In this document: piece after piece, positions 4,557 to 33,109 of the stretch
How positions within the stretch are numbered: the stretch's first letter is position 1
Layout: each line of letters begins with the position of its first letter
Notes under the pieces: generated by a model
Database searches by the model: none
What the model was told of the DNA's origin: nothing
Seen by the model: only the letters and a program-made list of their open reading frames with translations
Origin: Polaromonas sp.
GTDB taxonomy: Bacteria; Pseudomonadota; Gammaproteobacteria; Burkholderiales; Burkholderiaceae_C
Direction: 5' to 3'
Assembly: GCA_004293655.1 (NCBI GenBank)
Contig: RDZZ01000048.1
Location: forward strand, 1 to 33,157
DNA: 33,157 bases
Made by a program: the position numbers and the translations under genes

Positions 4557-4598
4557 GGGGTGCGACTGGTTGAAAAGACAATAAAAGTTGTCGGGCGA

Positions 4599-5894: not shown

Positions 5895-5925
5895 GATGTT
5901 TTCTCTTTTTTTAGTTGGAAATGAA

Positions 5926-6441: not shown

Positions 6442-6578
6442 GGTGTACTCCTGGTGGAATGGGTCATAAAAAGTCGATAGCCTGCTATGTATTCAATAGC
6501 TGCTTGCGAGCGTGTTTATTGCTTAAAAAGCAAATATGAGCAACAAATACGGCTTAAAAAATCAAAGAAATCAACCGG

Positions 6579-7547: not shown

Positions 7548-7580
7548 CAGAGTTCTCCAGTTAAAAATGTCGAAGGCGAG

Positions 7581-8378: not shown

Positions 8379-8509
8379 AACTTCTCCGCATCCGTTTGGA
8401 TTTCCGTGTCATTTGTATGACACTGTTGACTGATGGACGGATTGTGAGAGCGCTTGAAGCCTTTCGCAAATTCAAAATTTTTCGCTTGCAGTATCGATTT
8501 TTTCGATGA

Positions 8510-9424
8510 CTAGGGTTTACCTTTGGGTGACTTTTTAGGCACGATTTTGGTGCTTCCGGTAAAGGCCAAGGCCGACTCCAGCACCACGTCCACACTGTCT
8601 GAACTGGGGTCTATCCGGTAGCTGGCATGAATGGGCAGGGCCTCCACTTTTGCATCGACAGCCAGTGGTTTGAGTCTGGCAAAGCCTTTCATTCGGGCCA
8701 CTGCGGCACGCGGCAGAAGTGCCACACCAAAGCCGCCCTGCACCAATTGCACCATCGCGGAAATAGATGAAATCGCATGCACCTTCTTGGGGTCCAGGCG
8801 GTGTTTTTTAAACAGGTCCAGCAGCGTGACATGCGGCTGTGAGCCTTTTTGAAAGGTCAGCAGCTCCATGTCGGCCAGTTCGGCCACGCTGTAACTTCTC
8901 TTTTTATGCAACAGTGGGTTGCCGACAAACGCCATGTCCATGGGCGGCAAGACATGGTTGCGCACGCCCGTGCTGGCCGCAGGCAGTGCGGCAAACACCA
9001 CATCAAGTGCGCCGCGCGTGACCAGCTCCATCAAAATCGGTGTGGTCTCCACTGTGAGTTCCAGCTCCAGGCCAGGATGGTCAGCACGCAGTTTTTCCAG
9101 CCAGGGGATCAGCCATGAATGCAGCACCGACTCAATGGCGCCGATGCGCATGCTGACGGCCATTTGCTGGGCTGAACCCATTTCCCGCTTGACCTCCCGC
9201 TGCAAGGCCAGCAGCTTGTCGGCATAAACCAGAAAGCGCGCGCCCGCAGTTGTCAGCCTGAACTGCTTGTCACCCCGGTCCAGCAGCAGCACGCCCAGCT
9301 CGTCCTCCAGCGTGGAAATACGGCTGGACATGGCCGATTGCGTCAGGTGCAGCTTTTCAGCGGCACGAGATATGCTTTTAAGAGATGCGACCCAGTAAAA
9401 GGCTTCAACAAAACGCAGGTTCAT
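8510..9424 (-). CDS. LysR-family transcriptional regulator
   Basis: N-terminal wHTH MNLRFVEAFYWVASLKSISRAAEKLHLTQSAMSSRISTLEDELGVLLLDRG; LysR-substrate domain follows. Confidence 0.95.
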   Translation of the reverse strand: MNLRFVEAFYWVASLKSISRAAEKLHLTQSAMSSRISTLEDELGVLLLDRGDKQFRLTTAGARFLVYADKLLALQREVKREMGSAQQMAVSMRIGAIESVLHSWLIPWLEKLRADHPGLELELTVETTPILMELVTRGALDVVFAALPAASTGVRNHVLPPMDMAFVGNPLLHKKRSYSVAELADMELLTFQKGSQPHVTLLDLFKKHRLDPKKVHAISSISAMVQLVQGGFGVALLPRAAVARMKGFARLKPLAVDAKVEALPIHASYRIDPSSDSVDVVLESALAFTGSTKIVPKKSPKGKP

Positions 9425-9518
9425 GGTGACGATGCAGTCTGGGGTATGCCCGATAGTGTTCGCACAGTGTTTGCCAGTAATATAAGTTCACTCATTTTTA
9501 TACCGTTTTGGAGTCATC

Positions 9519-10484
9519 ATGAAGTTCAAGCTTGCCCTGATCGCTGCCGCCTATGCCCTGTGTACAACGGCTTTTTCCCAAACCAAATGGGACTTGCCTT
9601 CGGCCTACCCCGCTTCTAACTTTCACACTGAAAACCTCGTGCAGTTTGCCAATGACATTGACAAAGCCACCGCCGGAAAGCTGAAAATCACGGTACACCC
9701 TGGTGCATCGCTTTTCAAGGCGCCTGAGATCAAGCGTGCGGTACAGGCCAACCAGGCACAAGCCGGTGAGATTTTGCTGGCCAATTTTCAAAATGAGTGG
9801 CAAATTTTTGGTGCCGATGGCTTGCCGTTTTTGGCCGACAGCTACGACGAGGCCGCCAAGCTGTGGAAGTTTCAAAAACCCTTGCTGGAAAAAAAGCTCG
9901 GCGAGCAAGGCATGAGCGTGCTGTATGCGGTGCCATGGCCACCGCAGGGCCTTTACTCAAAAAAGCCGATTGCCAGCGGCGCTGATTTGAAAGGCTACAA
10001 ATGGCGCGCTTACAGTCCAGCCACATCGCGCATGGCTGAATTGCTCGGTGCGCAGCCCGTGACTGTGCAAGCCGCAGAGGTCAGCCAGGCGTTTGCCACC
10101 GGCGTGACCGACAGCATGATGAGTTCAGGCTCCACGGGCTGGGACGCCAAACTGCAGGAAAACGTCAAGCAGTGGTATGACCTGCAAGCCTGGCTGCCCA
10201 AAAATGCGGTGATCGTGAACAAATCTGCCTTTGACGCGCTGGATGCACCCAGCAAAGCCGCTGTCATGAAAGCCGCTGCTGATGCTGAAGTACGTGGTTT
10301 TGCTGCCAGCCAGAAGGCCAACGGCGAAACGCTGGACAAGCTCAGGGGCGGCGGCATGCAAATTTTGCCGCCCAGTGCAGCCCTCAAAGCCGACATGAAA
10401 AAAGTGGGCGACACCATGCTCAAAGAGTGGCTGGAGAAAGCCGGCCCTGAAGGCAAGCAACTCGTGGATGCGTTCTTGAAATAA
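9519..10484 (+). CDS. TRAP transporter substrate-binding protein, DctP family (third paralog)
   Basis: Signal peptide and TKWDLPSAYPASNFHTENLVQFANDIDKATAGKLKITVHPGASLF; GGAG ribosome-binding site just upstream; divergent from lysR. Confidence 0.93.
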   Translation: MKFKLALIAAAYALCTTAFSQTKWDLPSAYPASNFHTENLVQFANDIDKATAGKLKITVHPGASLFKAPEIKRAVQANQAQAGEILLANFQNEWQIFGADGLPFLADSYDEAAKLWKFQKPLLEKKLGEQGMSVLYAVPWPPQGLYSKKPIASGADLKGYKWRAYSPATSRMAELLGAQPVTVQAAEVSQAFATGVTDSMMSSGSTGWDAKLQENVKQWYDLQAWLPKNAVIVNKSAFDALDAPSKAAVMKAAADAEVRGFAASQKANGETLDKLRGGGMQILPPSAALKADMKKVGDTMLKEWLEKAGPEGKQLVDAFLK

Positions 10485-10490
10485 AAAATC

Positions 10491-11003
10491 ATGCTGCGCA
10501 AACTCCTTGATGCGCTCTATGACGGAGCAGCCGCTCTGGCCGCTCTTTTCATGGTGCTGCTGCTGGCGATGGTGCTGCTGTCCATCGTGGGGCGGGAGCT
10601 GGGTTTTTACGTGCGCGGCACGGACGCCTATGCGGGCTACTTTATGGCAGCAGCAGGCTTTTTGGCGCTGGCGCATACGCTGAAAAAAGGCGAGCATATC
10701 CGCGTCACGCTGCTGCTCAACGCTGTCAAAGGCCGCTACAGAAAAGCCATCGAAATCTGGGCACTGGCAGCTGCTGTGGCGCTTTCTGCATTGTTTGCGT
10801 ACTACAGCGTCAAGCTGTCGGTCAACTCCTTTCAGTTCAATGACGTGTCAACCGGCACGGACGCCACGCCGCTGTGGATTCCGCAAATATCGATGGGCCT
10901 GGGTGCGGTGGTGCTGCTGATTGCTTTTATAGATGAGCTGGTGCTGGAGATTCTGGGCAAACGGGCAGATGCCAGCAGCGACGAAATGCTGCATAACGAA
11001 TGA
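10491..11003 (+). CDS. TRAP transporter small permease, DctQ family (second copy)
   Basis: 170 aa, GRELGFYVRGTDAYAGYFMAAAGFLALAHTLKKGEHIRVTLLL, similar to 5926-6441; 6 bp after dctP. Confidence 0.9.
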   Translation: MLRKLLDALYDGAAALAALFMVLLLAMVLLSIVGRELGFYVRGTDAYAGYFMAAAGFLALAHTLKKGEHIRVTLLLNAVKGRYRKAIEIWALAAAVALSALFAYYSVKLSVNSFQFNDVSTGTDATPLWIPQISMGLGAVVLLIAFIDELVLEILGKRADASSDEMLHNE

Positions 11004-11037
11004 CAAAAAACAAAATAGAAGCAAAGTCGATACAAAA

Positions 11038-12333
11038 ATGTCCGATGTTGCCATCACCACCATTTTGGTTTTTTCACTCTTTGCTATCTTGGCATCAGGG
11101 GTATGGATTGGCTTGACGCTGTCTGGCGTGGCCTGGATTGCCATGCAGCTTTTCTCATCCCGTGCTGCGGGCGATGCGATGGCCGTGACCACCTGGGGCT
11201 CATCATCGAGCTGGACGCTCACTGCCTTGCCGCTGTTCGTGTGGATGGGCGAAATTTTGTTTCGCACCAAACTCAGCGAAAGCATGTTCAGAGGTCTGGC
11301 TCCGTGGGTCAGCCGCCTGCCGGGCGGACTGCTGCATACCAATGTGATCGGCTGCACCATTTTTGCTGCGGTATCGGGCTCGTCAGCTGCCACCTGCGCC
11401 ACCATCGGCAAAATGACATTGCCTGAACTCAAACGCCGTGGTTACCCGGACGACATCACGATTGGCTCGCTGGCTGGCGCGGGTACGTTGGGGCTGTTGA
11501 TTCCACCATCCATCATCATGATCGTGTATGGCGTGACGGCTGATGTGTCGATTGCCAAGCTGTTCATTGCGGGCGTGTTCCCCGGCTTGCTCCTGGCATC
11601 GCTTTTCTCAGGCTATCTGGTTGTCTGGGCGTTGATGAACCCCGGCAAAATACCGCCACCCGACGCGGGCATGAGCTTTGGGGCCAAGGTTTACGAATCG
11701 CGGCATTTGATACCGGTGGTACTTTTAATTGGTGCAGTACTGGGCTCTATTTACGCCGGTATTGCCACAGCAACTGAGGCAGCAGCCATTGGCGTCGTCG
11801 GCTCACTGGTGTTATCTGTGGTGCAGCGGTCCATGAGCTGGACGGTGTTCAAAGAGTCGTTGATGGGCGCGACCCGGCTGTACTGCATGATCGCCTTGAT
11901 TCTGGCGGGTGCGGCGTTTTTAACGCTCAGTATGGGCTACATCGGTCTGCCACGCCACTTGGCAGAGTTTGTGTCGAGTTTGGGTCTGTCGCCTTTTGTA
12001 CTGATCCTGGCATTAACGCTTTTTTACGTGCTGCTGGGCTGCTTTCTAGATGGCATCAGCATGGTAGTTCTCACGATGGGTGTGATTTTGCCTATCGTGC
12101 AAGCCGCCAAGCTGGATTTGGTCTGGTTCGGCATTTTTATCGTCATCGTCGTCGAGATGGCGCAGATCACGCCACCCGTCGGCTTTAATTTGTTTGTGCT
12201 GCAAGGCATGACGAGAAGAGAGATCACCTACATCGCCAAAGTCACCCTGCCGTTTTTCCTGCTGATGTGCGTGATGGTGTTGCTGCTGTGGTTTTTTCCG
12301 GGGATTGCAACTTGGTTGCCAGGCAAGATGTAA
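11038..12333 (+). CDS. TRAP transporter large permease, DctM family (second copy)
   Basis: MSDVAITTILVFSLFAILASGVWIGLTL...; very similar by eye along its length to the protein of 4599-5894. Start trimmed from the track ORF (10933) to the ATG at 11038. Confidence 0.93.
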   Translation: MSDVAITTILVFSLFAILASGVWIGLTLSGVAWIAMQLFSSRAAGDAMAVTTWGSSSSWTLTALPLFVWMGEILFRTKLSESMFRGLAPWVSRLPGGLLHTNVIGCTIFAAVSGSSAATCATIGKMTLPELKRRGYPDDITIGSLAGAGTLGLLIPPSIIMIVYGVTADVSIAKLFIAGVFPGLLLASLFSGYLVVWALMNPGKIPPPDAGMSFGAKVYESRHLIPVVLLIGAVLGSIYAGIATATEAAAIGVVGSLVLSVVQRSMSWTVFKESLMGATRLYCMIALILAGAAFLTLSMGYIGLPRHLAEFVSSLGLSPFVLILALTLFYVLLGCFLDGISMVVLTMGVILPIVQAAKLDLVWFGIFIVIVVEMAQITPPVGFNLFVLQGMTRREITYIAKVTLPFFLLMCVMVLLLWFFPGIATWLPGKM

Positions 12334-19818: not shown

Positions 19819-20220
19819 TCAATAAAATAGTGGCTGTACAAATGCAAACCAGCTGCCTGCCAGGTAGGTCGCCACACTTGCCAGATAAACCCGGGCCGAG
19901 TTTTTACGAACGCGCATACAGGTCTGCCGGAGCGCGGGGTCTGTCGGGCAGGGCGCAAAACGGTTTTTCCATTGCAGCACGCCACTGGCTACCAGCATCA
20001 GGCCTGCGAACGCAAAAACGACTTCCTTGTACTGACTGACCCAGACCAGGCCGGGCAAGACGGCCACGAGGCTCGAGAGTGCTGCGCCCGCGCCCAGTGC
20101 CACCAGCAGGGCGGGCAATGCGCAGCACAGCAGCGTGCCTGAGCTTGCAAACAGGCTCAGCCATGAGGTTCGGGCAGACCACGAGCCTGCGCTGTTGACG
20201 CTTCGGAGCAGCGGTTTCAT
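19819..20220 (-). CDS. MerT-like small membrane metal transporter
   Basis: 133 aa: LFASSGTLLCCALPALLVALGAGAALSSLV (CC-P TM segment as in MerT), second Cys pair CPTDPALRQTC followed by a TM segment; overlaps the HMA gene by 4 bp. Confidence 0.65.
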   Translation of the reverse strand: MKPLLRSVNSAGSWSARTSWLSLFASSGTLLCCALPALLVALGAGAALSSLVAVLPGLVWVSQYKEVVFAFAGLMLVASGVLQWKNRFAPCPTDPALRQTCMRVRKNSARVYLASVATYLAGSWFAFVQPLFY

Positions 20221-20567
20221 TTTTGAGCTTTCGCGGCAGCCTTGATGTCGGCAACCGACAGTTGCACGGTTTCAAGCCTGACGACGTCATAACCCGCATC
20301 GATGATCTCGGCCGTGATTTTTTTAGGGTCCAGTTTCTGGCCGTCTTTGGCCTCTATGGCCACAAGCTTTTTCTTGAGGTCCACAAAAACAAGCTGGGCT
20401 GCGGGCATGCCCATCAGGCCTTTCTCAATGCCCTGTGCGCAAAACGCACAGACCATGCCGTTGACCGTCACCTTGACGCTCTCAACGGCCAGTGCCGGGC
20501 CAGCTGCAACTGCAAAAAAGTAAATGCCTGCGCAGGCAGCCATGGTTTTAAGGCTTGGGGTTTTCAT
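20217..20567 (-). CDS. Periplasmic heavy-metal-associated (HMA, MerP-like) protein
   Basis: Signal peptide MKTPSLKTMAACAGIYFFAVAAGPALA, then VKVTVNGMVCAFCAQGIEKGLMGMPAAQLVFVDLKKKLVAI (CxxC HMA fold). Confidence 0.82.
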   Translation of the reverse strand: MKTPSLKTMAACAGIYFFAVAAGPALAVESVKVTVNGMVCAFCAQGIEKGLMGMPAAQLVFVDLKKKLVAIEAKDGQKLDPKKITAEIIDAGYDVVRLETVQLSVADIKAAAKAQK

Positions 20568-20593
20568 GATGTGTGTTTGAAAATGATAAAAAA

Positions 20594-20629
20594 ATGAAAA
20601 AAATGAAAAAAATGAAAAAGATGAAAAAA
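20594..20629. repeat. Tandem 9-bp repeat (atgaaaaaa-type), about four units, upstream of the HMA gene
   Basis: atg motifs at 20594, 20603, 20612 and 20621 with 9-bp spacing. Confidence 0.85.
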
Positions 20630-20668
20630 TGGTGGAGCAGGTTCAGATTTTTTAGATATTCTGGTGCT

Positions 20669-21337
20669 TCAAAAAATATACATAAAGTTAGCCCGCGCCT
20701 GCCGCATGCTGCTGACGCCAAGTTCAACAAAATAGCGCTTGTGAATCAGGCGCAGCATGGGTGTGATCTCGGTTTTCTCAGACAAACCGCGCATGCGCCG
20801 CGCCTCAACGACCAGCCACGGCTGTGTCTCGTCATAGTCCGCCTCGTAAAACGAAAAGCCAGCGCGTGCAGCCACAAAGTCATGGTTGATACCCGGTGCC
20901 CGGTACAGCCGGACAGAAGCCGACACATACAGCCGGGTGGTTTCATAGTCAGCCGACACACCTGGTGCCAGCATGGTTTTGCTGTCGCCAAGGTTATGGC
21001 CCGTCAGCCGGCCCGCACCACCCACAAACCAAAAGTTGGCCTGTGAATGCTCACCGTTGATGCGGTGCAGCAGCCGGGTGTAAGTCAGCTCACTGAAGGT
21101 GCGCGACAACTGCGATGCAGGCCGCCTGTCGTCAGAGCGCATCGCCACCACGCCTGCACCGAAGGCATCGCGCGGGCTGATGGCGTGATTGACCCAGGCT
21201 TCCTGCCAGTTTGGTGAAAAGTCACCCATCGCCATGGTGCTGCCGTTAAAGCCCATGGGGCCTGCGTGCGCAGCAGCGCTGGCAAGCAGCCCAAAAACTG
21301 CCAAAAGTTGGCGGGCAAATTCCCATCGGGCACGCAT
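20669..21337 (-). CDS. Hypothetical secreted / outer-membrane-like protein in the copper cluster
   Basis: 222 aa, signal peptide FGLLASAAAHA, alternating polar/hydrophobic strands, C-terminal aromatic residue ...ARANFMYIF. Confidence 0.7.
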   Translation of the reverse strand: MRARWEFARQLLAVFGLLASAAAHAGPMGFNGSTMAMGDFSPNWQEAWVNHAISPRDAFGAGVVAMRSDDRRPASQLSRTFSELTYTRLLHRINGEHSQANFWFVGGAGRLTGHNLGDSKTMLAPGVSADYETTRLYVSASVRLYRAPGINHDFVAARAGFSFYEADYDETQPWLVVEARRMRGLSEKTEITPMLRLIHKRYFVELGVSSMRQARANFMYIF

Positions 21338-21342
21338 GGCTG

Positions 21343-21699
21343 TTACCTGACGGGCTGTATGGCTGTCACCACGATCGCACTGCCGACTTTCTCGGCCTTG
21401 AAGCGAACCTTGTCACCGGCTTTCAATTTGTCCAGCAGTGCGGGGTCTTTGACCTGAAACACCATCGTCATGCCGGGCATGTCAAGGTGTTTGATTTCGC
21501 CATGCTTGATGGTGAGTTTTTTGGCGTCCAGGTCTAACTTGCGGATCTCGCCATCGGCCATGTCGGCACCTGCCGTTGCTGGCATGTCTTTTTTAGCTTC
21601 CTGTCTGGTCGTCGGCGCGCCTGCATGTGATGCAGCATGCAGCGATGCGCTGGCGCTTAGCAGGCCAGCCAGGATCAGAATGATTTTTGTGTTTTTCAT
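21343..21699 (-). CDS. CusF-like periplasmic copper-binding protein
   Basis: Signal peptide and HGEIKHLDMPGMTMVFQVKDPALLDKLKAGDKVRFKAEKVGSAIVVTAIQPV (CusF H...MxxMTM pattern). Confidence 0.85.
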   Translation of the reverse strand: MKNTKIILILAGLLSASASLHAASHAGAPTTRQEAKKDMPATAGADMADGEIRKLDLDAKKLTIKHGEIKHLDMPGMTMVFQVKDPALLDKLKAGDKVRFKAEKVGSAIVVTAIQPVR

Positions 21700-21744
21700 G
21701 GTTTTCTCTCAAAAGTTAAAAGGGTAAAAATAAAAACACAGGTG

Positions 21745-22248
21745 TCATTGGGTCTTGAGTACAGAAATTCTGCCGACCATACCCGCCTGGTAGTGACCCG
21801 CAATCAGGCAGGCAAACTCAAACTCGCCTGGGCGGTTGAATGTCCAGACCAGGTTTTGTGTTTTGCCTGCGGCTACATGCGCCATGTAGGGCTCGTCATG
21901 TTCCATGCCGGGGAACTTCACCATCAGCGCCGCATGCGCATCGAGTTCTTTTTTGGTGCCGATCACCATTTCATGCAACTGCTTGCCCTGGTTTTTGACC
22001 ACAAAGCGGATCGTCTCGCCTTGCTTGACAGTGATGGTGCTGGGGGTGAACCGCATGTTGTCGCCCATGCTCAAGGTGATTTCCCGTTTTACTGATGCGG
22101 CATCGCCCGCAATGCCCCAGTCTTTCTGCTCTTTCACCACCGCCGAAGTCTTTGCCTTGTGAGGCGTGTTTTCGTGTGCAAAAGAGGTGCTGGCGCAATG
22201 AATCAGGGCACATGCTGCTATCAATTGCGTAGTGTTTCGGATGTTCAT
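21745..22248 (-). CDS. Cupredoxin (plastocyanin/azurin-like, CopI-like) periplasmic protein
   Basis: MRFTPSTITVKQGETIRFVVKNQGKQLHEMVIG...EFEFACLIAGHYQAGMVGRISV, type 1 Cu ligand pattern H...C...H...M. Confidence 0.88.
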   Translation of the reverse strand: MNIRNTTQLIAACALIHCASTSFAHENTPHKAKTSAVVKEQKDWGIAGDAASVKREITLSMGDNMRFTPSTITVKQGETIRFVVKNQGKQLHEMVIGTKKELDAHAALMVKFPGMEHDEPYMAHVAAGKTQNLVWTFNRPGEFEFACLIAGHYQAGMVGRISVLKTQ

Positions 22249-22256
22249 AAGTTTGT

Positions 22257-22300
22257 GTTGATCTGGTTGGTTGATCTGGTTGTTTGGTTGGTTGGTTGGT
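22257..22300. repeat. Composite tandem repeat: gttgatctggttg x2, then (TTGG)4
   Basis: gttgatctggttg gttgatctggttg t ttggttggttggttggt; lies between the multicopper oxidase stop and the cupredoxin start. Confidence 0.9.
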
Positions 22301-23733
22301 CAGTGCTTCATGCCGCTGTGGCCACTTTGTTTGCCCACCACAGGTTTCCTGATTTGCACTTCAACTTGCTTTGCGGGCATGTTTTGCACTTTCATGGACT
22401 GCCCGCCTTCTGATGCAAAGCGCGCTGGGTCTGGCAACGCACCTGTCCATTCATAAGCCACCGTACCGGGCGGGTGTTTGTACCAGCCGGGGTCTTTGTA
22501 GTCGCCGGGTTTCTGGTCTTTGCGCACCTTGAGCATGCTGAACATGCCGCCCATCTCGACGCTGCCAAACGGGCCTTCGCCGGTCATCATCTTGGCGGTG
22601 TTGTCGGGCAGGGGCATGTCCATCTCAGCCATATCGGCCATGCCGCGCTCGCCCATGACCATGTAGTCGGGGATGACGCGGGTGATTTTTTTGACGATCT
22701 CGCGGTGGTCAACGCCTATCAGTGTCGGCACATCATGGCCCATGGCGTTCATGGTGTGGTGGCTTTTGTGGCAGTGAAAGGCCCAGTCGCCCTCTTCGTC
22801 GGCCAAAAATTCAAGTTGCCGCATCTGGCCGACCGCAATGTCTTGCGTCACTTCATACTGGCGGGTTGATTTTGGCGTGGGCCCGCCGTCTGTGCCTGTG
22901 ACCAAAAACTCGTGGCCGTGCAGGTGAATCGGGTGGTTCGTCATCGTCAGGTTGCCGATGCGAATCCGCACCTTGTCATGTTTGCGCACGATCAGCGGGT
23001 CAATGCCGGGGAACACGCGGCTGTTCCAGCTCCAGATGTTGAAGTCCAGCATGGTCATGATTTTGGGTGTGTAGGCACCTGGGTCTATGTCATAGGCGTT
23101 GAGCAAAAACACAAAGTCGCGGTCCACCTCGTCAATCAATGGGTGTTTTGCTTTGGGGTGCGTGATCCAGAAACCCATCATGCCCATGGCCATTTGCGTC
23201 ATTTCGTCGGCATGTGGGTGGTACATGAAGGTGCCGGGGCGGCGTGCCTCAAATTCATAGACGAATGTTTTACCGACGGCAATAGCCGGCTGGTTCAGAC
23301 CGGAAACGCCATCCATGCCGTTGGGCAGGCGCTGGCCGTGCCAGTGAACGCTGGTGTGTTCGGGCAATTTGTTGGTGACAAAAATGCGCACCCTGTCGCC
23401 TTCCACGACTTCAATCGTCGGGCCGGGTGACTGGCCGTTGTAGCCCCACAGGTGGCCTTTGAAGCCGGGCGCAAACTCGCGCACGACCGGTTCTGCCACC
23501 AAGTGAAACTCCTTGACCCCTTGATTCATGCGCCAAGGCAGCGTCCAGCCGTTCAAAGTGACCACCGGGTTGTAAGGCCGTCCTGTATTGGGCACCAGCG
23601 GGGCCATGGTGTCGGGTCTGGTTTGCATCACAGGCTCTGGCAGGGCGGCCATAGCGACGCGGCTGACTGCGGCGGCACTCACTGCTGCGGTGATCACGCC
23701 TGCACCCGCTAAAAAATTTCGTCTGTTGTTCAT
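22300..23733 (-). CDS. Two-domain multicopper oxidase, Tat-exported, with long Met-rich C-terminal extension
   Basis: Tat signal MNNRRNFLAGAGV; HWHGQRLPNGMDG (~aa 130), GTFMYHPHADEMTQ (~aa 168), HPIHLHGHEF (~aa 267), HCHKSHHTMNAMG (~aa 320) of 477 aa. Confidence 0.9.
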   Translation of the reverse strand: MNNRRNFLAGAGVITAAVSAAAVSRVAMAALPEPVMQTRPDTMAPLVPNTGRPYNPVVTLNGWTLPWRMNQGVKEFHLVAEPVVREFAPGFKGHLWGYNGQSPGPTIEVVEGDRVRIFVTNKLPEHTSVHWHGQRLPNGMDGVSGLNQPAIAVGKTFVYEFEARRPGTFMYHPHADEMTQMAMGMMGFWITHPKAKHPLIDEVDRDFVFLLNAYDIDPGAYTPKIMTMLDFNIWSWNSRVFPGIDPLIVRKHDKVRIRIGNLTMTNHPIHLHGHEFLVTGTDGGPTPKSTRQYEVTQDIAVGQMRQLEFLADEEGDWAFHCHKSHHTMNAMGHDVPTLIGVDHREIVKKITRVIPDYMVMGERGMADMAEMDMPLPDNTAKMMTGEGPFGSVEMGGMFSMLKVRKDQKPGDYKDPGWYKHPPGTVAYEWTGALPDPARFASEGGQSMKVQNMPAKQVEVQIRKPVVGKQSGHSGMKH

Positions 23734-23755
23734 GGTGAATCTTGATTAAATGAAT

Positions 23756-25201
23756 TTAGTGGCCAGGCTTTTCGCTACCAGCCGCTTGAGGCGCGGCCAT
23801 CATCACGCCGGTGGGTTTGCCTGTCATTGATGCGCTCAGGGCGGCATCGGCCAGCCAGAATTGCTGGTAGGCGTTGATGGCTGCCTGCACGCTGCTGATC
23901 TGGTCACGTGTGTCGGCCAGCAGCTCAAACACGCCAATCAGCATGCCGTTGTAGCGCAGTACGTTTTCTTCCGCCATGGTTTTACGCAGGGGCACGACTT
24001 CATCGCGGTAGTGGCGGGCCACGTCGTACGCCGTGCGGTAGGCTGAGTAACTTTCACGAAGCTGCGATGTGGCGCTGCGTACTGTGCTTTCATAGCGATT
24101 GGCAGCGGCGATTGACTGCGCGTTCATGGTGTCGCGTTTGGCGTTGCCCCAGTCAAAAATCGGCAGCCGTATGCCCAGCTCGTAGCCGCGTTTGGCAAAG
24201 GCTTTGCCCGCACCGCCTTCGTTGTCGAAAGTGGTGCTCCGGATGATGTCCAGTTCAACATCGAGCAGGCTTGTCAAGAGGTTCAAACCTTGGGCTTTGC
24301 CCGCAGCATCGAGCTGGCCACGTGCCAGTTGCACATCCAGGCGCTGGCCAGTAGCCGTGTTGCTGACCAGTGCCGGAGTGCGTGCGTCTTTTGGCAGGTC
24401 AGGCAATCTGTCAGGCAGCTGCAGTTGACCCGCCTGCGCATCCGTCAAGCCCAATTGCCGCACCAGCTCTTCTCGCGCCGCCAACGCCGCGTGTTGTGCA
24501 GATGCAAGCTGGGCCACGCTGTCAGCATAAAAAACCTGTTGGCGTGCGCGCTGCAGTTTGTTGAAGTTGCCGACCTGTTGCATGCGCTGGGCCAGCTCGG
24601 CGCTGGCCTCGGCTGTGGTGTTGGTTTGCTGGGCATATTGCAGAGTCTGGCTGGCCGCGACTGCCCGCACCCATGCCTGGCGGACTTGGGTGACCTGCTC
24701 GACGACGCTGGCAGACAACTGAACTTTGGCCTGGGCTGTCTGGCTTTGTGCAATGGCTTGCCTGCGTGGCAGCGTGAGCAAATCGAGCAGGCCGAACGAC
24801 AAAATACGCCCCAGCTCCAGCTCGTCTTTGAACGTGACCCGTTCAAACTTGAAGATCGGGTTGGACATGCGCCCGGCTTGGTTAGCCGCTGACATATCCG
24901 CCCAGCTCTGCGCCAGCAGGGTTTGCACTGCGGGGCTGTTGGCCAGGGCCAGCTGCACCGCATCGTCAGATGTCAAAGGTCTTGACAGCAGGTCTGCGGC
25001 AAGTTTGGCTTTGGCGTTGCGCTGCTCAGCCGTTTGGTGAAGTGCCAGCTTGCCGCTGGTAAAGCCCCCAGTCGTTTGATTGGCATGGCCGACAGCTTCG
25101 TCAAAATCAACCGAAGCGCAGCCTGCGAGTGCCAGCGCAGCGACGGCAATTGCAGCCAGCTTGAAATACTTGGTTGCGGTTTTTGTTTGTGCAAGCGTCA
25201 T
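23756..25201 (-). CDS. TolC / CusC-family outer-membrane efflux lipoprotein
   Basis: Lipobox LALAGC; OEP-type repeats (LALANSPAVQTLLAQSWADMSAANQAG...; LYAQQTNTTAEASAELAQRMQQVGNFNKLQRARQQVFYADS...). Confidence 0.85.
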   Translation of the reverse strand: MTLAQTKTATKYFKLAAIAVAALALAGCASVDFDEAVGHANQTTGGFTSGKLALHQTAEQRNAKAKLAADLLSRPLTSDDAVQLALANSPAVQTLLAQSWADMSAANQAGRMSNPIFKFERVTFKDELELGRILSFGLLDLLTLPRRQAIAQSQTAQAKVQLSASVVEQVTQVRQAWVRAVAASQTLQYAQQTNTTAEASAELAQRMQQVGNFNKLQRARQQVFYADSVAQLASAQHAALAAREELVRQLGLTDAQAGQLQLPDRLPDLPKDARTPALVSNTATGQRLDVQLARGQLDAAGKAQGLNLLTSLLDVELDIIRSTTFDNEGGAGKAFAKRGYELGIRLPIFDWGNAKRDTMNAQSIAAANRYESTVRSATSQLRESYSAYRTAYDVARHYRDEVVPLRKTMAEENVLRYNGMLIGVFELLADTRDQISSVQAAINAYQQFWLADAALSASMTGKPTGVMMAAPQAAGSEKPGH

Positions 25202-25515
25202 GGTTGAGCCTTTGGTTTTACTTCGCCCGCCCTTGTGGTGGAGGTGTTTTCAGGCTGAGGTTCAAGGTTTTGGGCCTGCCTGGCATATTCACGCCAGCCG
25301 CCAATGCGTGCCACCTCGTCGTTGGCCGCTTTCCAGTCAAGCATGGGGGCGTCGCTGTAGGCTCTGTAGCCTTCAAACGCTGACTTGTAAGGCGCTGGCG
25401 TTGCCGCTGGTGGCAACGCCGGTGGTGCGGTCTGCGCGCTTACGTGGCCGGCCAACAGTGTGGCTGACGAAAACGCCACCCACAATGTGGGTGCCTTGTG
25501 TGTTTTGCAAATCAT
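25198..25515 (-). CDS. Small secreted hypothetical protein in the copper cluster
   Basis: MICKTHKAPTLWVAFSSATLLAGHVSAQTAPPALPPAATPAPYKSAFEGYRAYSDAPMLDWKAANDEVARIGGWREYARQAQ...; 4-bp ATGA overlap with the downstream OMF gene. Start trimmed to 25515. Confidence 0.75.
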   Translation of the reverse strand: MICKTHKAPTLWVAFSSATLLAGHVSAQTAPPALPPAATPAPYKSAFEGYRAYSDAPMLDWKAANDEVARIGGWREYARQAQNLEPQPENTSTTRAGEVKPKAQP

Positions 25516-25633
25516 TAAAAATCTCCTGAACCATGAGCCGAGCAACTGGGTGAGTTGCGGGAGTCTGCGACGTAGATACCCGGCAGGCATCTGTCAGACA
25601 AGTCAAGTACAGGCCCAGCTTGGGCCTGAGGCT

Positions 25634-26044
25634 CTAGGCGATCGGTGGTTTTTGCCCCAGCGCTGTGGCTGCGCTGGTAAATGCAGTGCGCGTTGGGCGC
25701 AACTGGGTTGAGATCAATACAGGCGGGACTTCAAGTAACGCGGGCAGCAGTGCCACCGTGTGGCAAACCTGGCAGGCCAGGCAGGCACCACAGTGGTCAT
25801 TACCCGTCTCACGGCTTGTTGATTCACCGCGATCGAGCTGGCCAGACGCAGCCTCATGGCAATCAGGTACCGCCTGACTTTGAGAAACAGCAGCAGCCGC
25901 AGGGTCGATTTTTTGTGCGTGAGCAGCTACTGATTCAATGGCCACCGCAACTGCCGCGCTCGCCATCTGCATGGCCATCGCATCGCCAGCCCAGCTGCGC
26001 AAGGGCAGCAGGACGATCATGAGGGCGAGAATCAAATGGCGCAT
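25634..26044 (-). CDS. Small secreted Cys-rich hypothetical protein (first gene of the copper cluster)
   Basis: 136 aa, signal-like N-terminus MRHLILALMIVLLPLRSWAG and Cys cluster NDHCGACLACQVCHTVALLPALL. Confidence 0.7.
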   Translation of the reverse strand: MRHLILALMIVLLPLRSWAGDAMAMQMASAAVAVAIESVAAHAQKIDPAAAAVSQSQAVPDCHEAASGQLDRGESTSRETGNDHCGACLACQVCHTVALLPALLEVPPVLISTQLRPTRTAFTSAATALGQKPPIA

Positions 26045-26715: not shown

Positions 26716-26760
26716 AAATTTAGCAAATTTAGCAAATTCAGGAATTTTTGCAAATTTAAA
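26716..26760. repeat. Degenerate 9-bp tandem repeat, five units
   Basis: aaatttagc aaatttagc aaattcagg aatttttgc aaatttaaa. Confidence 0.88.
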
Positions 26761-26849: not shown

Positions 26850-29800
26850 ATGGACTCTTCGCAATTACAAGAAGCTACAGACTTTCAAAATCTGCAGCCT
26901 GATTCAAGTCACACACAGGCGCAGGACGTGCCCCCTTTTGCGCAGCAAGGCCAGGCATTGTCCGCGGCCAACAGCCTGCAGCCAGCTGCCCCACCACACC
27001 ACGCCCTGAATGCCGCAGGGCGTAGTTTGTGCGGGCAGCAAGACGCGCAGTTTTTCAATTTGTCTCTGGATTTGCTCAGCGTGGCCAGCCTGGATGAAGG
27101 ATATCTGCGGCGCGTCAACCCGGCCTGGACGACCTGCCTGGGCTGGAGTGCAACCGAGCTGACCAGCCGAGCCTGGCTGGACTTTGTACACCCTGATGAC
27201 CATGCATCAACTGTCAAAGCCCATGAGCAGCTCTTGCAGGGTAAAGCGCTCTATGAGTTTGAAAACCGCTACCGCTGCAAAGACGGCTCGCACCGTCAGT
27301 TGTCGTGGAACATTCACCCCAGCATGGATTCCCGCGAGCTTTTTTGCATCGCCCGGGACGTCACAGCGCGTCGGCACAACGATGCGTTGCTGCGAAGAAA
27401 CGACGAGCAGTTCAGGCTGATGGTCGAAGGCAGCGAGCAGGTTGTCTTCTACACCCGCGACAAGGCGCACCGTTTTACCTACCTTTCGCCGTCGATACTC
27501 AACGTGATGGGCTACCAGCCAGTCGATGTGATCGGAAAGACCAACAAGTGGCTTCAAATAGCTGGCGACCCGCTAAACGTCAGGGCGCGGCAGACCCTCA
27601 TCAAAACCCTCAAGGAGGGCCGGGCCATTCAGCCGTACACCATCGCAGCCCGGCACAAAGACGGGCGTCGCTTGGTGCTTGAAATCATTGAGAGCCCCGT
27701 TTTTGAAGGCAGCAGCATCGCCAGTTTTCAGGGCTTTGCCCGCGACCTGACCGAGCGCATGCGCACGCAAAACGAGCTGGCATTGTCAGAGTTGCGTTTT
27801 CGCAGCTTTTTCGAGCAGGCCGCCGTTGGCATGGTGGTTACATCTGAGACGGGCGAGTTTGTTCGGGTCAACCAGCGGTTTGCAGACATCATCGGGTACA
27901 CCCAGGAAGAAATGGTTGGCCAGCGGTGCTCGCACATGACTCACGCCGATGACCGGGGACACGAGGCTGTGTCGGTAGCGCAGTTGCTCGATGGGCGCAT
28001 GGACTCGGGTGCCTGGGAAAAACGCTACATTCACAAAAATGGCCATGTGGTCTGGTGCATGCTGAGCATCTCAATGCTGAGCATGCAGGGTGATGGCGTG
28101 CGGCAGTTCATTTGTGTGGTCGAAGACATTTCCGAGAAAAAGCGCGTGCAGGAGAACCTGCAACGCAGCCAGGCCATGCTGCGCATTGCCGGTGCTTCTG
28201 CCAAACTGGGCGGCTGGATACTGGAGACGCAGGGCAACGTGCTGCATTGGTCTGATGAGGTGCGCGCCATTCATGAAGTTGCGGGCAACTTTGAGCCTGC
28301 ATTGGCTCAGGCGCTTGAATACTATCCCGAGGACTGCCGTGATGCGGTGATGGCAGATTTAAAGCGTTGCCAGGAAGACGGCGTGCCCTTTAGTTCCGAA
28401 TATGAACTGACCACCGCGACGGGCAAGCGCGTCTGGGTGCTTGCCATGGGCGAGGCCCTGCGTGATGCCCAAGGCGGGATTGTGGCCGTGCAGGGTGCTC
28501 TCCAAGACATCACAGCCCGCAAGCAGACAGAAGCCTCGCTGCAGGCCAGCCAGCGCCGTTTCCGCGAGATCGCCGACACCTTTCCCTTCATTGTCTGGAC
28601 GGCTGAGCCTGATGGTCGGGTTGATTATGCGAATTCAGCCTTCAATGACTACCTGGGCCTGGCGGGCAGCGAGGAGCCCCAACCCGACTGGACTGCCTTT
28701 GTTCACCCCGAAGATTTGCCGCGTTGCCTGCAGGCCTGGCAAACGTCTGTACGTACAGGTGGTGTGTACTCGATTGACTATCGCCTCCAGGAAGTCTTCA
28801 GTGGCAACTACCACTGGTTTCGGGTGGAGGCCCAGGCTGTGCGTGATGCCACAGGGCTGATCACCAAGTGGTACGGCTCGGGTATCGACATCCACGAAAC
28901 CAAACTGCTGGAGCAGCAGGCCAAGTCTTTGGCCCACCGCCTGAGCACCACGCTTGAAAGCATCACCGACGGTTTTTTGATTCTTGACACGCAGTGGCGA
29001 TTTACTTTTTTAAACACCCAGGCCGAACGCATGCTGGGCCGGCCCCGGCAAGAATTGCTGGGCAAGACCGTCTGGACGGAGTTTCCGCTCACGGTGGGCA
29101 CCGCTTTCGAGCAGCAGTACCGCAAAGCCGTTGAAGAAGGCGTGCCAGTCCAGTTTCAGGATTACTACCCGGCGCCGCTGGACCGCTGGTTTGCCACCAG
29201 CGCTTATCCCAGCGATGAGGGCCTAGCTGTGTATTTGCGCGATGTGACGCAGACCCACAAGGATCTGGCGCAACTGCAACTGCTCAGAACCGCCGTGTCC
29301 CGGCTCAATGACATTGTGCTGATCACTGAAGGCGAGCCGTTTGACGAGCCTGGCCCTCGAATCATCTTTGTCAACGAGGCCTTCGAGCGGCGCACCGGCT
29401 ACACCCAGGCAGAAGTGATCGGAAAAACACCGCGACTCCTGCAAGGCCCCAAGACACAGCGTGCTGAACTGGACCGCATCGGCAAAGCGCTCAGGGCGTG
29501 GCAGCCCGTCCGGGGCGAACTGATCAACTACACCAAGAGTGGAGAAGAGTTCTGGCTGGAGCTCGATATTGTTCCGATTGCTGACTCAAAAGGCTGGTTC
29601 ACGCACTGGGTTGCGGTTGAGCGCGACATCACCGAACGCAAAATGGCCCAGGAGGCAATTTTGCGACTCAACAGCGATCTGGAAGACCGGGTGCAGCGGC
29701 GCACCGAACAGCTGGCAGCGGCCAACAAGGAGTTGGAGGCGTTTTCCTACTCGGTCTCGCACGATTTGCGCTCCCCGCTGGCCACCATCAATGGCTTCAG

Positions 29801-30392
29801 CCAGTTGCTGCTCAAATCCCAAAAAGATCAACTCGGCGAAAAAGGCCAACATTACCTGAACCGAATTTATGCAGGTTCGACCAAAATGGGCGAGTTGATA
29901 GAAGGTCTGTTGTCGCTGGCCAGGCTCTCTAGAGGTGATTTGAATCGCCAGGATGTGGACTTAACGGCCATGGCCGCCAAGATGGTGCGAGAACTTCGGG
30001 ATGCCGAGCCCGACCGGGTGGTGGATGTGACGATTCAAGCCGATCTGGTGGTCAATGGCGACGCCGCCATGGTGACGGTGGTCATGCAGAACCTGGTGGC
30101 CAACGCCTGGAAATACTCAGGTAGAACGCCACAGGCACGTGTGGACATTGGCAGCGAAACAACCCCCGACGGGATGCGCTGCATTTTCGTGCGCGACAAC
30201 GGCGCGGGCTTTGACATGGCATATGCAGAAAAACTTTTTCAGGTGTTCCAGCGCTTGCACCAAGACACCGAGTTCAAGGGAACAGGTATTGGTCTGGCCA
30301 ACGTCAAACGCGTGGTGGAGCGCCATGGCGGGCGGGTCTGGGCTCAGGCCGCAGTGGGTAAAGGTGCTACATTTAGGTTCACCCTTGACTAG
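26850..30392 (+). CDS. Multi-PAS sensor histidine kinase (about seven PAS domains, HisKA + HATPase)
   Basis: 1180 aa; repeated PAS/PAC blocks (e.g. SELRFRSFFEQAAVGMVVTSETGEFVRVNQRFADIIGYTQEEMVGQ), H-box FSYSVSHDLRSPLATINGF, N-box MQNLVANAWKYS, G-boxes DNGAGFD and GTGIGLANVKR. Confidence 0.93.
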   Translation: MDSSQLQEATDFQNLQPDSSHTQAQDVPPFAQQGQALSAANSLQPAAPPHHALNAAGRSLCGQQDAQFFNLSLDLLSVASLDEGYLRRVNPAWTTCLGWSATELTSRAWLDFVHPDDHASTVKAHEQLLQGKALYEFENRYRCKDGSHRQLSWNIHPSMDSRELFCIARDVTARRHNDALLRRNDEQFRLMVEGSEQVVFYTRDKAHRFTYLSPSILNVMGYQPVDVIGKTNKWLQIAGDPLNVRARQTLIKTLKEGRAIQPYTIAARHKDGRRLVLEIIESPVFEGSSIASFQGFARDLTERMRTQNELALSELRFRSFFEQAAVGMVVTSETGEFVRVNQRFADIIGYTQEEMVGQRCSHMTHADDRGHEAVSVAQLLDGRMDSGAWEKRYIHKNGHVVWCMLSISMLSMQGDGVRQFICVVEDISEKKRVQENLQRSQAMLRIAGASAKLGGWILETQGNVLHWSDEVRAIHEVAGNFEPALAQALEYYPEDCRDAVMADLKRCQEDGVPFSSEYELTTATGKRVWVLAMGEALRDAQGGIVAVQGALQDITARKQTEASLQASQRRFREIADTFPFIVWTAEPDGRVDYANSAFNDYLGLAGSEEPQPDWTAFVHPEDLPRCLQAWQTSVRTGGVYSIDYRLQEVFSGNYHWFRVEAQAVRDATGLITKWYGSGIDIHETKLLEQQAKSLAHRLSTTLESITDGFLILDTQWRFTFLNTQAERMLGRPRQELLGKTVWTEFPLTVGTAFEQQYRKAVEEGVPVQFQDYYPAPLDRWFATSAYPSDEGLAVYLRDVTQTHKDLAQLQLLRTAVSRLNDIVLITEGEPFDEPGPRIIFVNEAFERRTGYTQAEVIGKTPRLLQGPKTQRAELDRIGKALRAWQPVRGELINYTKSGEEFWLELDIVPIADSKGWFTHWVAVERDITERKMAQEAILRLNSDLEDRVQRRTEQLAAANKELEAFSYSVSHDLRSPLATINGFSQLLLKSQKDQLGEKGQHYLNRIYAGSTKMGELIEGLLSLARLSRGDLNRQDVDLTAMAAKMVRELRDAEPDRVVDVTIQADLVVNGDAAMVTVVMQNLVANAWKYSGRTPQARVDIGSETTPDGMRCIFVRDNGAGFDMAYAEKLFQVFQRLHQDTEFKGTGIGLANVKRVVERHGGRVWAQAAVGKGATFRFTLD

Positions 30393-30397
30393 GCGAC

Positions 30398-32089
30398 ATG
30401 ACACCGGCACCCATTCCCGACAATGATGCGCAGCGCCTCGCCGAGCTTGATCGCTATGAGATTCTCGACACCGGGGATGAAGCGGAGTTTGACGACTTCG
30501 CCCGGCTTGCTGCTCAAATTTGCAACGTGCCCATTGCACTGATCTCGCTCGTGGACAAAGACCGTCAGTGGTTCAAAAGTCGCGTTGGCCTGGATGTTCT
30601 GCAAACGGCCCGTGACATTTCATTTTGCGGGCATGCGGTAACGAGCACTGGCGTATTTGAAGTTCAGGACACTGCCCATGACCCGCGCTTTGCTGACAAC
30701 CCGCTGGTCGCTGAAGGCCTGGCCATACGGTTCTACGCCGGTGCCCCCTTGCTGACCCAAAGCGGCCTGGCCATTGGTACCTTGTGCGTGATCGATACAC
30801 AGCCTAAAACTCTGTCAAGCGAGCAAATCAATGCCCTTGAGGCGCTGAGTCGTCAGGTGGTTCGCCAGCTTGACCTGCGGCTTCTGGTGCGGCGCCAGAA
30901 GGCGCAAAACCTCGAACTGGCAGGGCAGCGCAATTTTCAAAAGATGTTGTTTGACAGCGCCACGGCAGGCGTGGTGTCCATCACGGCGGATGGTCAGATC
31001 ACTAGTATGAACGCCGCTTTTGAGCAGCTGGTCGGCTATGCAGCGGCTGAACTGGTTCACCGGGGAAATATCCGCTTGTTTCATCTGGAGGACGAGTTGG
31101 TGACGCGCGCCAAAACACTGAGCCTGCAACTCGCGCGCCCGGTCGAGCCAGAAGACAGCATCTGGGCTGGTGCCATGGTGGGTGTGCCAAACATGCGTGA
31201 CTGGACATACAGGTGCAAAGACGGCTCCTGTGTATCCGTTCTGGTGTCAATATCGCCTCTGGTCAGCGATGGCAGCGAGTTCGCCCCAGGTGGCATGACC
31301 AATGGGTTTGTGGTGGTGGTGTGGGACATCACCGAACGCAACAAGGCCCATGAGGAGGTCATCAAGCTCAATGCTGACCTAGAGGCCAGAGTCGCCCGCA
31401 GAACTGCCGAGCTGGAAAGAAAGACCCAGGACCTGGAGCTCTTGTCCTACTCCATTGCGCATGACTTGCGCCAGCCGTTGATCACGATCAGCGGCAATAC
31501 GCATCTTTTGAAAAAGCAGGCACTGGACGCTGTCAGCCTTCATCACCTCGAACGCATCGGTGCGGGTGTGCATCAGTTAAGCGTTCGCAGTGACGCCCTG
31601 CTTTATTTTGCCGACCTGTCGCACCGGCAACTCAAGCGGGGCGCTGTGGATCTTGCCCAAATCGCTCGTGAGCAGCTGCTGCGTTTGCAGCAGGACGAAC
31701 CTGGACGCGAAGTGGCAGCATTGGTGCCGCCCCATCTGCCCACCTGGGCAGACAAAAACCTGATGACCGAGGCTGTTAACGAGCTGGTTCTCAACGCCTG
31801 GAAATTCACGGCAGGCCGCGACAGTGGCAGCATAGAAGTAGGCCTCCGCGTTGGTGAAAACGGTGAGTACATCTATTTTGTGAAAGACAACGGATCAGGT
31901 TTTGACATGGCCCACGTACACACGTTGTTCGAGCCTTTTCAATACATCGAAACAGTAGAAGGCTCTGCCGGCCACGGTATCGGTCTGGCCAAAGTCAAGC
32001 GGATTGTGGCCAAACATGGTGGCCGGCTCTGGGCCGAGAGCCAGGTCAACGAAGGTTCTGTGTTTTACTTCACGTTGTCGGGTGTCTGA
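30398..32089 (+). CDS. GAF-PAS sensor histidine kinase
   Basis: 563 aa; GAF with LISLVDKDRQWFKSRVGLDVLQTARDISFCGHAV, PAS/PAC, H-box LSYSIAHDLRQPLITISG, DNGSGFDMAHVHTLFEPFQ, GHGIGLAKVKRIV. Confidence 0.93.
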   Translation: MTPAPIPDNDAQRLAELDRYEILDTGDEAEFDDFARLAAQICNVPIALISLVDKDRQWFKSRVGLDVLQTARDISFCGHAVTSTGVFEVQDTAHDPRFADNPLVAEGLAIRFYAGAPLLTQSGLAIGTLCVIDTQPKTLSSEQINALEALSRQVVRQLDLRLLVRRQKAQNLELAGQRNFQKMLFDSATAGVVSITADGQITSMNAAFEQLVGYAAAELVHRGNIRLFHLEDELVTRAKTLSLQLARPVEPEDSIWAGAMVGVPNMRDWTYRCKDGSCVSVLVSISPLVSDGSEFAPGGMTNGFVVVVWDITERNKAHEEVIKLNADLEARVARRTAELERKTQDLELLSYSIAHDLRQPLITISGNTHLLKKQALDAVSLHHLERIGAGVHQLSVRSDALLYFADLSHRQLKRGAVDLAQIAREQLLRLQQDEPGREVAALVPPHLPTWADKNLMTEAVNELVLNAWKFTAGRDSGSIEVGLRVGENGEYIYFVKDNGSGFDMAHVHTLFEPFQYIETVEGSAGHGIGLAKVKRIVAKHGGRLWAESQVNEGSVFYFTLSGV

Positions 32090-32140: not shown

Positions 32141-32180
32141 GGCTTCCCGGTTTTCCAGTTTTCCGGTTTGCTAGTTGAGA
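32141..32180. repeat. Degenerate 8-bp tandem repeat, five units
   Basis: ggcttccc ggttttcc agttttcc ggtttgct agttgaga. Confidence 0.65.
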
Positions 32181-32293
32181 TGGCTGCCAAGTTCCGAAAA
32201 CCGGTTTGTCGCCGCCGCTCCACACCTTGCGGCTCTGATCTTTGGTGTTTCCAAGACGGCACAACTTCAAACCTCTCCTTACTCGGAGCTTCG

Positions 32294-33109
32294 ATGCTTG
32301 AAAATTACCTGGGGCCGGCTTTGGCCTGCCTATTTTTGAGTGGCTTGCCTGCACTGTGCCAGGCTCAGAACAGCGTACTTCTGGAGGAGTTAACCACGCT
32401 GGAAGTCGCCTCGGCCTTGAAGGCAGGTAAAACCACTGTGATCATTCCGGTGGGTGGTACCGAGCAAAATGGCCCGCACATGGCCATTGGCAAACACAAT
32501 ACGCGAGCCAAAGCCCTGGCGGGCAAAATTGCTGTGTCTTTGGGCAATGCACTGGTTGCACCTGTGCTGGCTTATGTACCCGAGGGCAACATTGAGCCGC
32601 CGACAGAGCACATGGGTTTTGCCGGCACCATTTCGGTTCCTGAAGATGCCTTTAAAAGCGTCTTGCTGGGCGCAGCGCGCAGCTTCAAAAAACACGGCTT
32701 CAAAGATATTGTGTTGCTGGGAGACAGTGGAAACTATCAAAAGGCGCTGGCAGCAGTGGCTGCGCAATTCAATCGCGAGGCCACAAAAACACCGACGCGG
32801 CTGCATTACATGGCTGACTATTACCGTGCCACGCAGACCACCTATGTCGCCGCGCTACGGGCAAAAGGCTTGAGCACTGCCGAGATTGGCACCCATGCAG
32901 GCTCTGCCGACACCTCTTTCCTGATGGCGATTGACCCCGGCATGGTCAGGCCCGAACGCTTTGCCGAAGCAGCCAGCGCGGGTTGGGGCGGCGGCACCTT
33001 GGGCGACCCGCGTGCATCCAATGCAGCCAACGGTCAGCTGGGCGTTGATGTGGTCGTTAAAATAACGACCGAGGCCATCAAAAAGGCGGTGGCTGCGCCT
33101 AGACAGTAG
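32294..33109 (+). CDS. Secreted creatininase-family protein
   Basis: Signal peptide MLENYLGPALACLFLSGLPALCQA; TVIIPVGGTEQNGPHMAIGKHNTRAKALAGKIA, AYVPEGNIEPPTEHMGFAGTISVPED, IVLLGDSGNYQKAL, GTHAGSADTS. Start trimmed from 32168. Confidence 0.82.
   Translation: MLENYLGPALACLFLSGLPALCQAQNSVLLEELTTLEVASALKAGKTTVIIPVGGTEQNGPHMAIGKHNTRAKALAGKIAVSLGNALVAPVLAYVPEGNIEPPTEHMGFAGTISVPEDAFKSVLLGAARSFKKHGFKDIVLLGDSGNYQKALAAVAAQFNREATKTPTRLHYMADYYRATQTTYVAALRAKGLSTAEIGTHAGSADTSFLMAIDPGMVRPERFAEAASAGWGGGTLGDPRASNAANGQLGVDVVVKITTEAIKKAVAAPRQ

Follow-up and report, generated by a model that had tools for sequence, protein, structure and literature searches.

In Rhodobacter capsulatus, the nascent chain of CutF senses copper and opens a hairpin ahead of an oxidase gene (PMC9973294). 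A survey of CutF found TolC-type proteins to be its commonest neighbors and ascribed them to resistance-nodulation-division (RND) systems. In Bordetella pertussis, CruR (BP2923), the product of a DUF2946 upstream open reading frame (uORF), represses an uptake operon via Rho termination (PMC9426467), and a literature survey recorded cusF in beta-proteobacteria without RND pumps of the heavy-metal efflux type (HME-RND; PMC6769254). Here we describe a cluster of nine genes at 19819-26044 on the minus strand of a Polaromonas sp. contig (RDZZ01000048.1, assembly GCA_004293655.1; family Burkholderiaceae_C of the Burkholderiales). The whole stretch of DNA that was analyzed, 33,157 nucleotides long, is called the window. 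Judged from its gene content, the cluster is probably a copper-responsive operon of two fused modules, with a predicted leader sensor, a set for periplasmic Cu(I) detoxification (genes 2-6, which form module A together with the leader) and a separate metal transport set (module B, genes 7-9), and with no dedicated CusAB pump. Its features are as follows.

25634..26044, minus strand: gene 1, predicted CutF/CruR/CopL-like exported leader of 136 aa, with signal peptide, CxxCxxC and C-terminal QKPPIA at a spacing of 38
25610..25628, minus strand: hairpin CAGGCCCA-AGC-TGGGCCTG, 5 nt past the gene 1 stop (minimum free energy (MFE) fold)
25198..25515, minus strand: gene 2, small exported protein of 105 aa when read from the corrected start, no Pfam match, motif S.FEGY..Y.D....W..AND.V...GGWR.YA
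23756..25201, minus strand: gene 3, TolC-family outer-membrane channel lipoprotein, LALAGC lipobox, PF02321 in two stretches
22300..23733, minus strand: gene 4, two-domain multicopper oxidase, Tat-exported, Met-rich in its C-terminal part, Cu-oxidase_3 and Cu-oxidase_2
21745..22248, minus strand: gene 5, exported cupredoxin, CopI-like, PF00127/PF13473
21343..21699, minus strand: gene 6, CusF-like periplasmic copper-binding protein, PF11604 (E 1.4e-28)
20669..21337, minus strand: gene 7, outer-membrane 12-stranded beta-barrel, no Pfam family, predicted model with pLDDT 88.8
20217..20567, minus strand: gene 8, exported HMA-domain protein, MerP/CopZ-like, PF00403 (E 1.1e-8), CAFC past the signal peptide
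19819..20220, minus strand: gene 9, small membrane protein, distant MerT homologue (hhalign to the MerT profile, probability 84.6%, E 6.8e-6)

A sequence-only reading of this DNA had seen nine minus-strand genes with short gaps or ATGA overlaps, and the open reading frames (ORFs) agree with it: all nine are intact and co-directional, with ATGA overlaps at the junctions of genes 2 and 3 (25201/25198) and of genes 8 and 9 (20220/20217). The start of gene 2 is very probably the ATG at 25515, which is preceded by AGGAG at 25527-25523, and not the one at 25590; the gap between genes 1 and 2 is therefore 118 nt. Genes 7 and 8 are 101 nt apart, and the remaining gaps measure 22, 51, 45 and 5 nt. We infer that the nine genes are co-transcribed. 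Pfam confirmed the OEP/TolC, Cu-oxidase, plastocyanin/azurin, CusF and HMA families, gave no match of weight for genes 1, 2 and 7 and none for gene 9, and an Rfam scan of the window returned no match. A KH_NucS_shadow match of gene 1 (E=0.005) was treated as spurious.

The same reading had described a copper cluster that has an outer-membrane channel but lacks a pump in cis. This was borne out and is conserved across Burkholderiales; the ORF list and profile searches revealed no CusA/CusB, P-ATPase or CopB/C/D encoded among the nine genes. A CopABCD-type operon was rejected, with CopB, CopC and CopD all unmatched. The idea of a single nine-gene unit had to be given up, since the genes form two evolutionarily separable modules. 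Gene-order conservation, which had been proposed as a check, holds for each of them. Module A runs leader, gene 2, TolC, oxidase, cupredoxin, (DUF411), CusF in ~60 loci of the family, and the order of module B is kept as described below; counts from different locus sets are not independent, because loci from the GTDB and genome draws overlap (L221/L289, L166/L292, L201/L083). A seemingly incomplete cluster thus resolves into two testable units.

Gene 1 and the hairpin behind its stop codon

The sequence-only reading had found no regulator in the window. This was wrong, as gene 1 is apparently a CutF/CruR/CopL-like nascent-chain copper sensor that heads the operon, a prediction made by analogy. 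The protein is shorter than 150 aa, carries an N-terminal signal sequence (judged by eye) and a cysteine metal motif, and has PP within its 15 C-terminal residues (...GQKPPIA). We collected 100 distinct homologues, mostly from the heads of modules A and B, and PP occurred in the last 15 aa of 99, compared to 1/669 other cluster proteins. In these 99 relatives, the spacing from CxxC to PP is 38-41 residues (mean 39.3, SD 0.54), while the length before CxxC varies (SD 23). The only leader lacking PP (L082/L167) ends in LKTPVV, a natural variant of the motif, and the cassette that it heads has a divergent barrel.

The region of the gene 1 hairpin folds with a z-score of -2.68 over 161 nt (MFE). 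In the 50 nt past the leader stop, the mean z is -1.6 for heads of module A and -1.7 for heads of module B, with values below -2 in 37% and 49%, respectively. As a control, the 50-nt stretches downstream of other genes in these clusters gave mean values of -0.6 to +0.75. Close relatives have the hairpin CAGGCCC/GGGCCTG immediately 3' of the leader stop, and more distant relatives have different strong hairpins in the same position.

In its fixed spacing, PP end and hairpin past the stop, gene 1 matches what has been reported for CutF and, in part, for CruR, and the sensor reading follows from this agreement. The CxxC of gene 1 would bind copper during synthesis and export. The KPP end would then slow the ribosome, so that the hairpin behind the stop opens and the downstream genes are expressed, as in CutF of Rhodobacter; the cluster would accordingly be induced by copper. 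The leader with fixed spacing is a new variant of CutF/CruR, and it provides a motif-spacing rule for copper leader peptides: (K/R)PP 38-41 residues past CxxC, with a hairpin after the stop.

The three-gene membrane set of module B

Genes 7 to 9 were selected from two sides. When gene 7 was used to pick loci of other families, genes 8 and 9 came next to it in 20/20 cases. In the best 80 loci selected by gene 9, gene 8 is present in all 80 and gene 7 in 77, and the other three lie near contig ends. The oxidase is found in only 11 of these 80, hence module B mostly stands away from module A. A CusF-like gene lies directly upstream in ~30/80 module B loci and a leader of the gene 1 type in many; beyond these, no gene family is found next to module B in the majority of loci. 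The hosts include Polynucleobacter, Limnohabitans, Methylotenera, Ca. Methylopumilus, Rhizobacter, Aquabacterium and Methylibium. Among plasmids, gene 7 gave no match and gene 9 four weak Variovorax matches that cover half the protein.

Within the genus, gene 9 occurs in 13 genomes; each of these carries the oxidase too, and in most of them A and B share a contig. Several Polaromonas (L289, L295) carry module A followed by a full module B with its own leader and CusF, whereas in the window and in Methylibium (L209, L240) module B is joined directly behind CusF. The window therefore presents a fusion of two modules, which probably followed the loss of the second leader/CusF pair.

The gene 7 barrel has no Pfam family in 21 relatives. 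Its predicted model is nearest to KdgM-type porins in a Foldseek search that also matched other barrels, and the alignment shows a C-terminal aromatic residue. The sequence-only reading had called the next two genes a MerP/MerT-like pair, which is right in so far as gene 8 has an HMA domain and gene 9 is a remote MerT relative; both stay below the MerP/MerT cut-offs. Every gene 8 relative read has a CAFC or CSFC motif. In gene 9, C32, C33, C91 and C101 are invariant in 17 relatives, and the profile alignment to MerT pairs the CC; as in MerT, CC stands in the first helix and the loop holds another Cys pair. PF02411 (MerT) did not match gene 9 and matched only 2/17 relatives (best E 5e-4).

The 101-nt gap before gene 8 is the only sizeable one within module B, and it contains a 9-bp tandem repeat, AAAAAAATG x3-4, at 20588-20623, which could tune expression by slippage. 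A partial gene 9 copy with an in-frame TAG was found in another genome of the genus (G836:C31:24379-24591), apparently decaying; this genome has four HME-RND matches.

The most fitting reading of module B is a transport set, inward or outward, with copper as the presumed metal. A soft metal, most likely Cu(I), would be passed between compartments by the outer-membrane barrel, the periplasmic HMA chaperone and the MerT-like inner-membrane protein. The leaders of A and B share their end motif, hence the two modules are probably switched in the same direction, which favors a role of B linked to detoxification. Our literature search, limited in reach, found no description of a barrel-HMA-MerT triplet, and module B appears to be undescribed. 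We tentatively propose that genes 7-9 represent an undescribed copper transport system across both membranes, often with its own nascent-chain sensor, in Burkholderiales of freshwater and soil, either alone or fused to the multicopper oxidase (MCO) cassette. The set of three membrane genes is strictly conserved in freshwater bacteria (Polynucleobacter, Limnohabitans, Methylotenera), and its outer-membrane protein falls into no family.

Module A and its relation to export pumps

Module A consists of known protein families, and its cassette is frequent in databases. Gene 2 was detected in 43/60 family loci. Gene 3 has the OEP repeats, long helices and beta hairpins of the TolC/outer-membrane factor superfamily. 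Its structure, predicted from an alignment of genome loci (pLDDT 73), matched TolC, OprM, CusC and SilC in Foldseek (E 1e-14 to 1e-11); the model indicates a full outer-membrane-factor fold that is equally near to all four. Gene 4 has the four HxH motifs of a two-domain multicopper oxidase (HWH130, HPH172, HLH270, HCH320), and its closest solved structure is the two-domain laccase 2zwn (E 6e-36). The CopA/PcoA model (TIGR01480, copper_res_A) scored 152.6 bits on gene 4 against a cut-off of 478.95, and the CopI models remained below cut-off on gene 5. When gene 6 is aligned with CusF (2qcp), W44 is replaced by Met and the positions H36/M47/M49 are kept.

Module A is also found on plasmids of Polaromonas, Variovorax, Acidovorax, Comamonas and one marine Pseudoalteromonas. 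Its plasmid sites include metal-resistance regions with CueR, P-ATPase and arsenic genes. On the mobilizable Pseudoalteromonas plasmid (L041, 9932-14559) the oxidase is 80% identical and an insertion sequence with an ISL3 transposase follows the cupredoxin. A Comamonadaceae-type cassette on a gammaproteobacterial plasmid suggests horizontal transfer.

The rest of the genome was searched for CusAB, as the sequence-only reading had advised. HME-RND (TIGR00914) did not score over the cut-off in the metagenome-assembled genome (MAG) of the host, which is 79% complete, or in a finished genome of the same genus (G100), and CusA (TIGR00914) and the CusB adaptor are both absent from the window, which thus holds no CusCFBA set. 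CopR-type regulators (TIGR01387) were likewise not found over cut-off in either genome. A copper-type P-ATPase is encoded on another contig of the host genome. The oxidase is present in 108/151 family genomes and 64/87 genus genomes, and 22 of the latter 64 are without HME-RND, with no association between the two (Fisher p=0.80). An RND permease or adaptor lies within the ~16 kb read in 15/60 family loci; cusAB does not routinely follow the same gene order. These counts show that the pumpless state is ordinary. What had looked like an oddity, a TolC-MCO-CusF cassette without a pump, is common in Comamonadaceae.

The channel had also been called CusC-type, and this label did not hold. In the tree, the TolCs of the cassette and those of neighboring RND operons form separate clades (support 100/100), and an RND operon near the cassette can carry its own TolC, as one locus shows. 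Weak RND linkage and a separate TolC clade indicate that the cassette is a self-standing unit, with the partner of its channel, if any, in trans. The ascription of TolC neighbors to RND systems made in the CutF survey fails for this cassette. In Comamonadaceae, a TolC gene that follows a CutF-like leader is not necessarily part of an RND pump, contrary to what annotation commonly infers. No description of a pumpless TolC-MCO-CusF cassette was found in the literature, within the limited reach of our search.

Several points weigh against a sensor-headed operon that has no dedicated pump. Across the family, 22 of the 108 oxidase-bearing genomes lack HME-RND and there is a weak positive association (odds ratio (OR) 2.3, p=0.039), and a minority of relatives have CusCBA-type operons close by. 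Canonical TolC channels require an adaptor and a pump, and several non-HME RND pumps of the host MAG could drive the gene 3 channel; G100 has other RND pumps as well. Gene 1 lies under the family cut-offs (PF11162, DUF2946, E 0.036; CopL_fam, E 0.0017) and is therefore classed as working like these proteins, its formal membership being weak; at E<=0.1, DUF2946 matched 10 and CopL_fam 13 of 18 relatives. Pairwise covariation in the leader hairpin is slight because close relatives barely vary, and the position-specific fold z-scores are the stronger argument for the hairpin. That the hairpin sequesters the Shine-Dalgarno sequence of gene 2 is not established.

It is possible, if somewhat doubtful, that the channel recruits a general RND pump of the hydrophobe/amphiphile efflux (HAE) type, or another adaptor, in trans. 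TolC-type channels are shared between pumps, as is established for TolC itself, gene 3 has a full TolC/OprM-like predicted fold, and the host genome contains several RND permease loci under the HME cut-off. However, no constant adaptor or pump accompanies the cassette across the plasmid and genome contexts read, and no general RND pump is known to move copper ions. A copper delivery operon, which would serve cuproenzyme assembly and not detoxification, seems improbable. In its favor, module B is found with no module A in streamlined genomes from fresh water (Polynucleobacter, Ca. Methylopumilus), HMA and CusF-like proteins act as chaperones, and CruR-type leaders can control copper uptake (PMC9426467). 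Nevertheless, none of the genes beside module B forms a recurring family that points to oxidase assembly, and module A includes a multicopper oxidase and sits in the plasmid metal-resistance regions described above. Less probable still is a dispersed Cus system, in which TolC and CusF of the cluster would serve a CusAB heavy-metal RND pump encoded elsewhere. E. coli CusF feeds CusCBA, and both the family-level association and the 15 loci with a nearby RND gene, some with histidine kinase/response regulator (HK/RR) and P-ATPase genes, fit this idea. It is countered by the separate clade of the TolCs in RND operons near the cassette, by the 22 cassette-bearing genus genomes without HME-RND, finished G100 included, and by the missing association within the genus. 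That genes 8-9 are a remnant of mercury uptake (mer) is very unlikely: gene 9 has both MerT cysteine pairs and gene 8 a weak MerP score, but both miss the cut-offs, the cluster contains neither merA nor merR, genomes of the genus have true MerT genes at separate places, and the barrel is nearly always in the triplet, often with a CusF-like gene too.

Returning to the two-module copper operon, the most likely task of module A is to detoxify Cu(I) in the periplasm through oxidation and sequestration. The Tat-exported oxidase would oxidize periplasmic Cu(I), the cupredoxin and CusF would carry or hold copper, and the TolC-type channel may offer an exit for some of it, with a partner in trans if needed. 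The earlier interpretation is thereby supported in its pumpless copper cluster and revised as to the two modules, the regulator and the channel type.

Surroundings of the cluster and comparison with known systems

Divergent from the copper cluster, two adjacent sensor kinases are encoded at 26850-32089, a multi-PAS-HisKA-HATPase and a GAF-PAS-HisKA-HATPase protein, with no response regulator alongside and not of a metal type by domain. Gene 1 is separated from the divergent PAS histidine kinase by ~800 bp, and four 9-bp repeats (AAATTTAGC-like, 26716-26758) lie in this region. A creatininase-family amidohydrolase follows at 32168-33109. At 3573-12333, two near-parallel sets of tripartite ATP-independent periplasmic (TRAP) transporter genes, with DctP at 3573-4556 and 9519-10484 and membrane subunits in each, flank a D-glutamate cyclase (7581-8378) and a LysR regulator (8510-9424).

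The CutF-CutO system (cutFOG) of R. capsulatus (PMC9973294, PMC8456105) shares with the cluster a small exported leader with Cu-binding cysteines and a C-terminal PP, a hairpin past the leader stop and a Tat-exported multicopper oxidase downstream. Here, in contrast, gene 2 and the TolC channel stand between leader and oxidase, the oxidase is of the two-domain type, and module B is attached. The cysteine motif is CxxxC in CutF and CxxC in gene 1, whose sensor role is predicted from sequence. With CruR (PMC9426467), the leader shares CxxC, a proline end motif, a fixed spacing and the place at the head of a copper operon. CruR has RAPP after 45 intervening residues, whereas the cluster leader has (K/R)PP after 38-41, a structured region past the stop and detoxification genes downstream.

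Xanthomonas copLAB, Pseudomonas copABCD and pco likewise combine a CopL-like leader, a multicopper oxidase and an outer-membrane protein in one operon. CopA/PcoA are larger, with three domains, CopB resembles neither TolC nor gene 7, and CopC and CopD have no counterpart here. MerT and MerP of the mer operon correspond to genes 9 and 8 in pairing a periplasmic HMA protein with a small membrane protein that has CC in its first transmembrane helix (TM1) and a second Cys pair. The differences are the scores under the MerT/MerP cut-offs, the lack of MerA and MerR and the outer-membrane barrel alongside, and a classical mer operon was rejected for the cluster. With cusCFBA of E. coli, the cluster shares a TolC-fold outer-membrane lipoprotein and CusF. 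It differs in having no CusA/CusB, a channel no closer to CusC than to TolC/OprM and a Met in place of CusF Trp44, and it adds a multicopper oxidase and a cupredoxin.

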